Of a stretch of 64,000 nt of DNA, positions 22,761-59,707 are shown piece by piece. The notes below the pieces were generated by a model. It did not search any database. It was not told where the DNA came from and worked only from the letters and a program-made list of their open reading frames with translations. Origin of the DNA: Vibrio halioticoli NBRC 102217 (GTDB lineage: Bacteria > Pseudomonadota > Gammaproteobacteria > Enterobacterales > Vibrionaceae); contig NZ_BAUJ01000008.1 of assembly GCF_000496695.1 (NCBI RefSeq), positions 1 through 64,000 on the forward strand, read 5' to 3'. The translations under genes and the position numbers were made by a program. Numbering within the stretch: the first letter of the stretch is position 1; each line of letters starts with the position of its first letter.

Positions 22761-22783
22761 GGGGTCAGGTCTTGAAATTTGCA
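22761..22783 (+). repeat. Dispersed 23-bp tag, copy A
   Basis: Copy of GGGGTCAGGTCTTGAAAT... ending TTGCA, plus orientation. The copy is identical over 23 bp to those at 22809, 22950, 23819 and 23955. Confidence 0.85.
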
Positions 22784-22808
22784 GGTGATTCTTTCCAGAT
22801 TATGTGGA

Positions 22809-22831
22809 GGGGTCAGGTCTTGAAATTTGCA
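22809..22831 (+). repeat. Dispersed 23-bp tag, copy B
   Basis: Second plus-strand copy, 48 bases after copy A. It faces the inverted copy C across a 118-base spacer. Confidence 0.85.
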
Positions 22832-22949
22832 GATAATTGTTTTCAAACTAGCGCTCTCTAACTAATCAAAATGTTAGCGCAATCGCTCTTCATGTGACGC
22901 TTCTCTTACCTTAGAGTTGGGCTTGTCGTCGTTCGTCGTTGTCAAAGGG

Positions 22950-22972
22950 TGCAAATTTCAAGACCTGACCCC
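22950..22972 (-). repeat. Dispersed 23-bp tag, copy C (inverted)
   Basis: Inverted copy lying about 80 bases upstream of the glutathione S-transferase start. Pairs with copy B. Confidence 0.85.
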
Positions 22973-23053
22973 GCACTTGCTCACTTTAAGGTTGACAATA
23001 ACAACTATGTGGGTATTATAATTGATATTATCAACTTGTATGTAAGGTGCTCT

Positions 23054-23833
23054 ATGCCAATAGTTAAACCAACCAATAAATCAGTAGAAACATTGAAGGG
23101 ATTACATCTCTATCACACGGGGTTTTCAAACTGTGCGATGCGGGTAAGAATTGCTTTAGAAGAGAAAGGGCTAGAATGGGAAAGTCATGCTCTTGATTTG
23201 CAAAAAGGTGAAAACCTAACCGCCGAATATTTTGGTATTAACCCTAATGGTGTGGTACCGACCTTGGTTGATGATGGTGTGGTGATCATCGATTCTGCCG
23301 ACATTATTGATTACATCGATCAGAAGTTTACGCCAAACTCTTTACGTCCAAGCAATGAGTGTGATTTGCAACAAATGTATGAATGGATGTATTTGGCGCG
23401 AGATAATCATCTTTCTATTAAAACCTACATGTACAGCAATGTTAAAAATCCGCAGGGCATGAAGCGTAATGAGCAAGAAATGGCGGATTACCGTGAGAAG
23501 CAGACTTTTGACAGCGCTTTGTTGGCTTTTCATGAACGTTTCAATTCACACAACGGATTTTCTGCGGAAGAAAAAGCGCAGGCTACAGCAATTATTGATC
23601 AATGTTTTTCCAAAATGGATAAGCGTTTAAGCGATCACCAGTGGCTAGTGGGTGAGAATTTTTCTTTAGCCGATATTACGTGGATACCCCAACTCGTAGT
23701 ATTAAAAGCCGCTAATTATCCCTTTGAAAACTACCCAAACTTAGAGCAATGGAAAAATGCAATTATCCAACGACCTAGTTTTGAACGTGCAGTGAAGCAA
23801 TGGTTGGTTTTACCTAGCGGGGTCAGGTCTTGA
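23054..23833 (+). CDS. Glutathione S-transferase family protein
   Basis: A 259-residue GST-fold protein. The N-terminal thioredoxin-like domain (about 17-95) has LYHTGFSNCAMRVRIALEEKGL, with NPNGVVPTLVDDG and the glutathione-contact pair in IDSADIIDYID. The all-helical C-terminal domain has the capping motif FSLADITWIPQL. The substrate is unknown. The ATG at 23054 has AAGGTG upstream. The last six codons and the stop lie inside tag copy D, so the tag supplies the present C-terminus (SGVRS). Tags flank the gene on both sides. Confidence 0.85.
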   Translation: MPIVKPTNKSVETLKGLHLYHTGFSNCAMRVRIALEEKGLEWESHALDLQKGENLTAEYFGINPNGVVPTLVDDGVVIIDSADIIDYIDQKFTPNSLRPSNECDLQQMYEWMYLARDNHLSIKTYMYSNVKNPQGMKRNEQEMADYREKQTFDSALLAFHERFNSHNGFSAEEKAQATAIIDQCFSKMDKRLSDHQWLVGENFSLADITWIPQLVVLKAANYPFENYPNLEQWKNAIIQRPSFERAVKQWLVLPSGVRS

Positions 23834-23841
23834 AATTTGCA
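23819..23841 (+). repeat. Dispersed 23-bp tag, copy D
   Basis: Plus-strand copy overlapping the end of the GST gene and providing its stop codon. It faces copy E across a 113-base spacer. Confidence 0.85.
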
Positions 23842-23954
23842 CGTCTCTAGATCTTGTACTCAATAAACTCTTTTTAGAGAAGATCGCTAAAAGTGTTCTG
23901 AATAAGTGATAATTCACTCCATTTTTACGTTAGTTTTGGTTGACTCAAATTGAG

Positions 23955-23977
23955 TGCAAATTTCAAGACCTGACCCC
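23955..23977 (-). repeat. Dispersed 23-bp tag, copy E (inverted)
   Basis: Inverted copy 55 bases before the second helicase gene. With copy D it forms a 159-base inverted-repeat unit, similar in size to the B-C unit (164 bases), although the spacers do not look alike. Confidence 0.85.
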
Positions 23978-57892: not shown

Positions 57893-58938
57893 TGAATCGT
57901 AATTATCTCAATATGGGTCAAATCGTTTTATTACTGACCCTGGCGCTGAGTTTCTCAGTCAATGCCCGTTTAAGTGCTGGTGGAGAAACAGCGGATACAA
58001 GCCATAACCCAAATAGCCATCCGTCAGCTGAGCAGCTTTCGTATATTGCGCAAGACAGAAATAACCCAATTGCAACACGCATTGATGCGCTACAACAACT
58101 GGCGCAGCATCCTAGCCAAAGTGCGCTTATTGCTGTGGCAAGAGGGCTCAAAGATCCCTCGTATGAAATAAGAGTGGCATCGGTGAGCGCAACAGAGCCT
58201 TATCAGTTTGCGCATCGCTGGAGATTATTAGCGCCACTGATGAACGATTTGGTAGTGGATGTACGAATGACCGTTGCGCACAATTTAGTGGTTGAATATA
58301 GCGAAATGAATGCGCTACAAAAACAGCAGTTTGCGAGCGTATTTGACGAATGGATAGCAAGGCTTGAGCAAGCCTCCGATGAAGAGTCGTTAATTAGCAT
58401 GGCGCTAGCGTATGTGCATGTTGAGCGCTATTCACAGGCGAGGCAGGTTTATTTTCGGTTAAAAGATCAATCACAACACAACGTTGAAGCTTGGATTGGT
58501 ATCGCAGAAACTTACCGTTTGGAGCACAATGATTTTCAGGCGTTAAATGTGTTGCAAGATGCCTTGAATGCCAATCCGCAACAGCCGCAATTGTATTACT
58601 CTAAAGCATTGACTTTAGTGCGTTTAGACAGAAAGCCACAAGCGGCGCAGGCAATGGAAAAGGCGGCAACACTGGCGAAAACCAATGCGAATTACTGGTA
58701 TGTAAATGGCATTTTGCACGAAGTGTTTAACCCTATGGCTGCGCAACATTCACTGCAAAAGGCGTACAACATTTCGCGTAATCCACAACATTTGTATGCG
58801 GTGTGCGATTTAAAAATTAGACATGCTGATGTGGGTGCAAAACAGTGTGTGCTAGAGCTAAAAAGCCTAGCACCCGATGAAGTGACTAGTGCATTAATGC
58901 GTCGTATTGACCACGGGGATGACGTTATTACGCACTAA
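57892..58938 (+). CDS. HEAT/TPR repeat protein
   Basis: A 348-residue exported protein with a signal peptide ending at about VNA. HEAT-like repeats (PIATRIDALQQLAQHPSQSALIAVARGL, YEIRVASVSAT) are followed by TPR-like repeats (NVEAWIGIAETYRLEHNDFQALNVLQDAL). The start ATG shares a base with the anSME stop (TGATG), so translation is coupled. It may be a periplasmic scaffold for sulfatase or phosphatase partners, by inference. Its 3' end overlaps the next gene on the other strand by 45 bases. Confidence 0.8.
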   Translation: MNRNYLNMGQIVLLLTLALSFSVNARLSAGGETADTSHNPNSHPSAEQLSYIAQDRNNPIATRIDALQQLAQHPSQSALIAVARGLKDPSYEIRVASVSATEPYQFAHRWRLLAPLMNDLVVDVRMTVAHNLVVEYSEMNALQKQQFASVFDEWIARLEQASDEESLISMALAYVHVERYSQARQVYFRLKDQSQHNVEAWIGIAETYRLEHNDFQALNVLQDALNANPQQPQLYYSKALTLVRLDRKPQAAQAMEKAATLAKTNANYWYVNGILHEVFNPMAAQHSLQKAYNISRNPQHLYAVCDLKIRHADVGAKQCVLELKSLAPDEVTSALMRRIDHGDDVITH

Positions 58939-59193
58939 GGCGCGTTTTACGTTTTTACATAGCTTGCCAAAGCGTCGAATATCATCAAAGTTTGGCGGTG
59001 TACCATCTGAGATGTAGTGCTCCCAATACGAAAGCTCAGTATCCACTAGCTCCATTAATTTCTTTGGACAACCGACGCAGTTGGTTCCCGTACCGCAGAC
59101 AAAAGTCTCATCTTCATAAAGAGGCAATTCGATTTTGGCTTGCTCTATAAGGTTATGCATTGCGGTGAGTCTATCGGGTTTACGTTCGGTCAT
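58894..59193 (-). CDS. Cys-motif hypothetical protein, 99 residues
   Basis: A small soluble protein (MTERKPDRLTAMHNLIEQAK...) with a conspicuous CGTGTNCVGCPKK motif that could bind metal or a cluster, and a further Cys at about 80. It looks real: balanced composition and a well-formed helical N-terminus. The family is not recognised. Its end overlaps the HEAT/TPR gene on the opposite strand. Confidence 0.7.
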   Translation of the reverse strand: MTERKPDRLTAMHNLIEQAKIELPLYEDETFVCGTGTNCVGCPKKLMELVDTELSYWEHYISDGTPPNFDDIRRFGKLCKNVKRALVRNNVIPVVNTTH

Positions 59194-59482
59194 TTCGCTG
59201 AGCCTTGAATTTTAGTCGGGGTATAATAATACAAATTAATCGAATGTATATAGTTCGTTTCATTATTAAGAAATGCCCAGATTAAAAGCAAACCGACTAG
59301 ACAGTCGCTTTGGAAAGTGGCTGCTATGCAGAGGGATTTGTGATGATGAAGTTGATAACTTTTTGGGGTTTTTAGTAGTGTGTCTTTTGGTTTAGCAAGC
59401 TGTTGCCCCAAAGTTTGCTATCACAAGCTCACGGATAATTTATCTTTTGTAGTAATAGGAGCGCTGGAAGCATTTTTCTCTT
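59194..59482. other. Intergenic region without a supported gene
   Basis: Contains the promoter side of the Cys-motif gene. A 73-codon minus frame has an odd composition and no binding site, so it is not called. Confidence 0.3.
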
Positions 59483-59505
59483 TGCAAAATTCAAGACCTG
59501 ACCCC
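59483..59505 (-). repeat. Dispersed tag, variant copy F
   Basis: An inverted variant of the tag at 22761: TGCAAAATTCAAGACCTG then ACCCC, with AAAATT in place of AAATTT and followed by AT rather than GC. Confidence 0.8.
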
Positions 59506-59513
59506 ATTGACAC

Positions 59514-59533
59514 AAAATTCAAGACCTGACCCC
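59514..59533 (-). repeat. Dispersed tag, variant copy G
   Basis: Direct repeat of copy F 31 bases on, starting at AAAATTCAAGACC. A truncated third copy (CTGACCCCATTTTTT) follows at 59542. Confidence 0.78.
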
Positions 59534-59707
59534 ATATGTTTCTGACCCCATTTTTTACGCGTTTTTATATAAAGACAGAATGCAAAATGTGAAGCCTATG
59601 CATTATATTTCAGTAACTTATGATAGATTGAGTGAAACTTAGGTAAGCAGGAAAACGAGCTGGCCTGTTATTCAGAATGATATGCAAACCTCATGCTCGG
59701 GAAGTAT

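Follow-up and report, generated by a model that had tools for sequence, protein, structure and literature searches.

Dispersed tags of the TIRtron type look like seams of single-gene loss and gain in Vibrio halioticoli

Across a 64,000-nucleotide stretch of Vibrio halioticoli NBRC 102217 (hereafter the window, that is, C102:1-64000 of genome G000, which comprises 4.01 Mb in 109 contigs), five identical copies of a 23-bp tag surround a GST gene, and a unit that includes this gene is present here and absent from a sister genome (G159), where a single tag is left. This is one of four precise tag-bounded present/absent units that we observed. We regard it as probable that the five tags are terminal repeats of the TIRtron type served by a group-1 RAYT transposase, and that they act as seams along which single genes are lost and sometimes gained; the kind of repeat is already known (the TIRtron family), and the window offers a clear example of genes gained and lost between such repeats. 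Although RAYTs and the repeats linked to them are widespread, their effect on genomes, and how it comes about, is still poorly shown. The two sister genomes, with about 100 tags each, RAYTs that are 88% identical and flanks about 90–97% identical over most aligned stretches, offer both alleles at defined repeats, so that repeat-driven gene loss and the part played in it by the RAYT become directly testable.

Five tags around a GST gene

The five letter-identical copies of GGGGTCAGGTCTTGAAATTTGCA are arranged as A> B> <C [GST] D> <E at the positions and on the strands given in an earlier note on this DNA, and the units of 164 bp (B–C) and 159 bp (D–E) that it described were likewise recovered, with spacers of 118 and 113 nt that are unrelated in sequence (Table 1). 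Two variant tags near 59.5 kb are additional copies in the window that were absent from that note. Dinucleotide shuffling (100 shuffles) produced zero matches at up to three mismatches. The dinucleotide GC precedes tags A, C, D and E but not B, and A and D share 26 bp (that is, AGC plus the tag). Because the 19 bp 3' of tag B resemble those after A (a 42-nt family, 86% across the tag plus these 19 bp), A and B may represent an old partial tandem duplication. The GST gene ends inside tag D: its TGA stop codon lies within the tag, and the protein closes with ...LPSGVRS, of which GVRS is encoded by the tag.

Table 1 Tags and related features in the window
Feature	Position	Strand	Description
Tag A	22761-22783	+	Exact GGGGTCAGGTCTTGAAATTTGCA; with the preceding AGC, left copy of the 26-bp direct repeat; junction of the G159 allele
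Tag B	22809-22831	+	Exact GGGGTCAGGTCTTGAAATTTGCA
Tag C	22950-22972	-	Exact GGGGTCAGGTCTTGAAATTTGCA; inverted partner of B
Tag D	23819-23841	+	Exact GGGGTCAGGTCTTGAAATTTGCA; orientation as A
Tag E	23955-23977	-	Exact GGGGTCAGGTCTTGAAATTTGCA; inverted partner of D
Variant tag, AATTTT type	59483-59505	-	1 mismatch; adjoins the 1.27-kb tandem duplication of G159
Second variant tag	59511-59533	-	3 mismatches
Present/absent unit, 1058 bp, with B, C and GST	22761-23818		Missing with exact boundaries from G159, where a single tag remains
GST gene, 259 aa	23054-23833	+	Pfam GST_N and GST_C domains
GST upstream region	22986-23053	+	Homologous, from 22986 onwards, to the region preceding the untagged GST in G114

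A tag-bounded unit, present or absent

Homology between the window and G159 runs from 9425 to the last base of tag A (22783) and picks up again at 23816, which is three bases short of tag D; the G159 allele reads flank-A, one tag, the D–E spacer and tag E. The difference amounts to 1058 bp (B, C and GST) that are present in G000 and absent in G159, with the joint inside the 26-bp direct repeat and flanks that are approximately 90% identical; a search of G159 for the GST gave no match at E ≤ 1e-40. An empty site in a relative lacking the gene, which the earlier note had suggested looking for, thus exists in G159, where exactly the interval from A to D is missing and one tag remains.

As to polarity, the genome G114 carries a GST of 85% protein identity beside ylqF, with the order and orientation ylqF – GST – DEAD helicase kept (the helicase lies 9 kb beyond GST), and contains no tag at up to five mismatches in 18 kb around the GST or 4 kb around the helicase. 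Homology between this untagged region and the window begins 14 bp beyond tag C. Since the gene occupies this interval of G114 in the same orientation and has no tags around it there, the GST was probably resident before the tags, and recombination between tags in direct repeat probably removed it from G159; loss through the tags appears more likely than delivery by them, an argument carried by one outgroup species. V. ezurae stands nearer to G000 than G114 does (helicase identity 97% versus 93%) yet has no GST here, so that residency requires at least two losses. Its sequence is collinear with the window up to 22620 and again from 23962, with MerR-like and carboxymuconolactone-like genes (assigned by eye) in between, and, where tag E lies, a sequence that may be a decayed tag (13 of 16 letters agree by eye). 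In G015 the ylqF–DEAD interval has no GST and contains a transposase of 325 aa (L152:9756-10733; NF047646 below cut-off) that belongs to a different RAYT kind, so that the interval attracts different elements.

The opposite course, in which the GST was gained as a tag-bounded cassette (that is, a tag plus the segment from B and C through GST was recombined into, or transposed beside, a pre-existing tag as in G159), seems to us doubtful. It would be in keeping with the G159 allele as an exact empty site with one tag, with the lack of GST here in both V. ezurae and G015, with a second, different GST that lies between doublets in G159 and is missing from the corresponding site of G000, and with a further locus (L049/L252, below) at which the outgroup has neither gene nor tags. 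It is opposed by the untagged GST of G114 in the same interval and orientation, with homologous upstream sequence, and by a four-fold-site identity between the GST genes of G000 and G114 (0.35) that resembles that of the neighbouring genes (0.33–0.44), values that are all saturated and therefore weakly informative, without separating inheritance from transfer. The suggestion that the whole GST gene moved as a cassette between tag pairs consequently holds in one part, the interval from A to D being a clean present/absent unit between G000 and G159, and meets in G114 the finding named beforehand as speaking against it, a GST at the same place in an untagged relative (V. ezurae and G015 having none there). 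The GST was most likely bracketed in place rather than delivered, the bracket being the unit of presence and absence. Orthologues of the gene (E ≤ 1e-40) occur in 9 of 227 genomes of the genus; besides G000 there are eight, and the neighbourhood is common only to G114, the other seven having the gene at different places, which implies that GST moves or is transferred by some route.

The three further units are of the same form. Two zero-spacer doublets in G159 (L246 on C1) bracket 625 nt that code for another GST (201 aa, ending in GVRS), and the G000 counterpart (L039) consists of a single doublet, joined to the outer flanks of the two G159 doublets, and no GST. Tags in G159 (L252 on C2) likewise bracket a 484-aa T5orf172/DUF4041 gene, for which G000 (L049) has one tag with both outer flanks; as V. 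ezurae has neither tag nor bracketed gene at this site, gain is favoured there. The remaining unit lies in V. ezurae (L113), where an integrase fragment and a 104-aa ORF share the 864 nt between two doublets, facing a single doublet in G000 (L037) with flanks that are 97–99% identical. Apart from these units with exact joints at direct repeats, tag-adjacent differences were seen at L040/L245, L079/L278, L081/L300 and L033/L242 and at the 1.27-kb duplication in the window, and other orthologous tag sites are conserved (for example, L034, L042, L047 and the RAYT locus).

The tag across the genome

A tag confined to this locus, which the earlier note took as an outcome that would speak against its reading, is rejected by the genome-wide count: G000 contains 105 tags at up to three mismatches (52 forward and 53 reverse, 80 exact), and the reversed pattern, scanned over the same genome as a control, gave 0 matches. 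Scans by position covered 101 of the 105 tags, including all 80 exact ones. Among these, 35 overlap or lie within 20 bp after the stop of a co-directed ORF (ORFs of at least 90 codons, rather than annotated genes), compared with 4% of random intergenic points. ORFs of G000 of at least 80 codons that enter the outer end of a tag do so in the phase that ends in GVRS and a stop in seven cases and in the other phases in 0 and 2 cases, the corresponding numbers in the G159 stretches being seven, 0 and 1; several tags, that of the GST included, supply the stop codon of a gene (...GVRS).

The base before the tag is C in 62 of the 101, and the one before that is G in 55. We at first assumed GC to be the target site and dropped this idea, as Aliiglaciecola doublets lack it. 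No clean insertion with a target-site rule was found at the tag sites aligned with V. ezurae; tags there mostly accompany replaced intergenic sequence, and the divergence of V. ezurae outside genes is too great for a target to be defined.

Doublet spacers range from 0 to 126 nt in G000, and in Aliiglaciecola seven of the nine doublets listed have a spacer of 6–7 nt. The 18 short doublets of G000 (spacer of at most 25 nt) often have palindromic spacers of unrelated sequence: 11 spacers of at least 9 nt give 57 outer contiguous pairs, whereas 1000 shuffles gave 4.3 on average and 14 at most, and three of these 11 show just 0 or 1 outer pair. By hand count, 11 doublets have at least one variant arm (arms at up to three mismatches), with the same variant on both arms in five and differing arms in six, from which we infer that partial correction from arm to arm across the hairpin may occur. 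At one orthologous doublet (L049:1587-1652 in G000 versus L252:3225-3291 in G159 and L220:10043-10107 in V. ezurae), the palindromic spacer of G000 differs from that of the two relatives and resembles that of a doublet 7 kb away, a difference that we read as conversion or re-insertion of whole doublets. Carriage by phage or plasmid was considered and rejected, given that the exact tag occurs in no viral contig of the collection searched and that the window locus has no match among plasmid records.

A RAYT transposase among the tags

A search with PF01797 found two places in G000, a broken fragment on C89 and one intact RAYT of 281 aa (C105:63211-62369; PF01797 4.7e-14). The intact protein reaches 92.7 bits with NF047646 (REP-associated tyrosine transposase; cut-off 80), has the Y1/HUH motifs NHYHLL and YIVLNP (by eye), and its sole PDB match at E ≤ 0.1 is TnpArep (4er8, E 2.2e-6). 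Its C-terminus gives matches to HTH_23 (6.3e-4, residues 254–275) and MarR (4.2e-4, residues 239–276) that are weak, both below the Pfam cut-offs. The gene has tags on both sides in the pattern > < RAYT > < <, a flanked RAYT of the sort that the earlier note had proposed to look for, and its own stop and last residues (GVRS) lie within a tag.

Among the 227 genus genomes, the tag core is found in 23, the RAYT (E ≤ 1e-40) in 16 and both in 9 (overlap counted by hand), versus approximately 1.6 expected from the product of the two frequencies. The link between tag and RAYT is not strict: 14 of the 23 core-bearing genomes lack this RAYT, and 7 of the 16 RAYT genomes lack the core. Core copies in bulk occur solely in G000 (100) and G159 (101), the next highest number being 11; 1.19 Mb of G159 scanned contain 68 tags at up to three mismatches, 52 of them exact. 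V. ezurae has 13 tags at up to two mismatches (six exact) and no close RAYT (best match 2.2e-4). Exact tags also occur in Aliiglaciecola, a Nitrosomonas bin, an Elusimicrobiota bin and BMS3Bbin08, and the stretches scanned of the latter three contain no RAYT. Near-identical tags flank a RAYT of 57% identity in Aliiglaciecola, where, as in G050, the arrangement is the simple > RAYT <.

A GGGGWSAS motif lies within 700 bp of the RAYT in 8 of 17 loci scanned, at both ends in several, and nine of the 17 (45–56% identity) have none within that distance. Other RAYTs have their own second tag half, GCCTTTTGCC in G036 and GCCTTACATTTGACA in G050. A 5.8-kb stretch of the Nitrosomonas bin (L120) contains ten GGGGTCAG motifs with differing second halves, those of the window's tag and of G050 included.

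Relation to known repeats

For comparison with known systems we draw on parts of PMC3733652, PMC6006769, PMC3116915 and PMC3161906. A single tag folds at -0.3 kcal/mol (z 0.38), which is not better than shuffles and amounts to no hairpin, and two short doublets fold at -23.5 and -44.1 kcal/mol. Lacking a hairpin of its own, the tag does not qualify as a REP as usually understood; it fits the terminal repeats (GGGGWSAS) that define TIRtrons/TIRYTs. Di Nocera in 2013 (PMC3733652) described RAYT-like genes between repeats, several of which have the consensus GGGGWSAS and which also occur as dimers and clusters, and 20 of 26 TIRYT examples in PMC6006769 belong to RAYT subclass 2.1, all with an HTH domain.

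That the tags are instead canonical REPINs, or REP doublets of a GTAG-type RAYT (Bertels and Rainey 2011, PMC3116915), is very improbable, and canonical REPs were rejected as a candidate. The system shares with them the inverted doublets and singlets between genes and one intact cognate RAYT in the genome, as well as the supply of stop codons by repeat ends, which is also described for GTAG REPs (PMC3733652). It differs in having no GT[AG]G foot in the tag or its flanks (101 tags, by eye), no hairpin of the single unit, and spacers too variable for the roughly constant doublet length of GTAG REPs and REPINs. Moreover, a RAYT with an HTH C-terminus is of the kind (subclass 2.1) near which the parts of PMC6006769 considered report no REP-like repeats. 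Of the likeness to RAYT-mobilised REP doublets drawn in the earlier note, the RAYT-linked dispersed repeat therefore stands, with 105 copies and a RAYT among them, and the designation of the tags as REPs does not.

With TIRtrons/TIRYTs (that is, RAYT group 1 or TnpA_REP subclass 2.1; PMC3733652 and PMC6006769) the system appears to share an HUH-Y1 RAYT with a C-terminal HTH (here weak), terminal repeats that fit GGGGWSAS (GGGGTCAG), the occurrence of these as singles, dimers and clusters, and their overlap with the 3' end of the RAYT gene. It is distinguished by its 105 copies, its short doublets with mostly palindromic, unrelated spacers and its repeat-bounded gene presence and absence, three features not met in the parts of the two sources examined; the word Vibrio is absent from the main text of both. 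Literature searches for the string GTCAGGTCTTG returned no paper titled on repeats or transposases, and GGGGTCAG combined with REP and transposase returned off-subject papers only (both judged by title).

Proposed course of events

The explanation that we favour is grounded in the copy number, the RAYT among the tags and the matching tag variants near RAYTs in several other genomes. The tags would belong to a TIRtron-type family as its dispersed terminal repeats, and a single group-1 RAYT (TIRYT), encoded at another place in the genome, would serve them, presumably by cutting at the outer GGGG end and so spreading them. Tags and tag pairs may then settle between genes, often a few base pairs after a stop or in place of the last codons, thereby supplying the stop. 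At the window locus they would have come to flank a GST that was probably already resident, after which A and D could act as 26-bp direct repeats, and recombination, replication slippage or transposase-assisted joining between direct tags would delete the intervening DNA and leave one tag, as in the G159 allele. Both the polarity (loss versus gain) and whatever part the RAYT may play directly in the deletion are inferred, and the 26-bp joint alone fits recombination, slippage and RAYT-assisted joining alike.

Integron gene cassettes are single genes between short recombination sites that are gained and lost as units. It is rather unlikely that tag pairs and RAYT form an integron-like gene-shuffling system, in which promoter-bearing single genes are bracketed, receive their stop from a tag and are gained or lost as units by an HUH transposase; the single-gene units would be shared with integrons, with a Y1 transposase in the place of the integron integrase.

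REP-mediated chromosomal rearrangements were reportedly described by Shyamala in 1990. The tags may, in a possible account that we hold to be on the less probable side and that is compatible with the favoured explanation, have been spread by the RAYT at one time and now be passive, serving as short homology for ordinary recombination and clustering in variable regions. A transposase is not required for direct-repeat joints, E. coli is known to have junctions at REP sequences (PMC3161906), and six of the nine listed breaks in the alignment of the window with G159 lie away from tags (the other three, at 22783/23816, 59508 and 59535, touch them; 59508 by eye); as intergenic regions vary anyway, exact joints weigh more than such counts. 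The use of short dispersed repeats as joints of duplication and deletion is shared with the E. coli case, whereas the alleles here concern one gene or a short unit, differ between species and lie at a TIR-type repeat. Against passive tags stand the 80 letter-perfect copies among 105, though long aligned pieces around tags are 68–99% identical to V. ezurae, and tag-anchored partial tandem copies near RAYTs that are almost unchanged. Four such copies of the 5' part of the RAYT element lie beside the full gene in G036 (L153:2044-4334), all of which begin at a tag and differ in where they end, three of 345–409 bp at 96–100% identity and one of 97 bp at 94%, and a copy of the RAYT 3' part anchored at its tag in G050 (L154:1876-3202) is 99.7% identical.

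Two observations concern larger differences between the sister genomes. Positions 58273-59535 of the window correspond to the tandem duplication of approximately 1.27 kb that G159 has; of its two joints, one coincides with a tag and the other does not. A 5.8-kb block of G000 (L049:1934-7741) that is unmatched in G159 lies between two peptidyl-prolyl-isomerase-like fragments (by eye) and not directly between tags, and we read it as an island with another kind of boundary.
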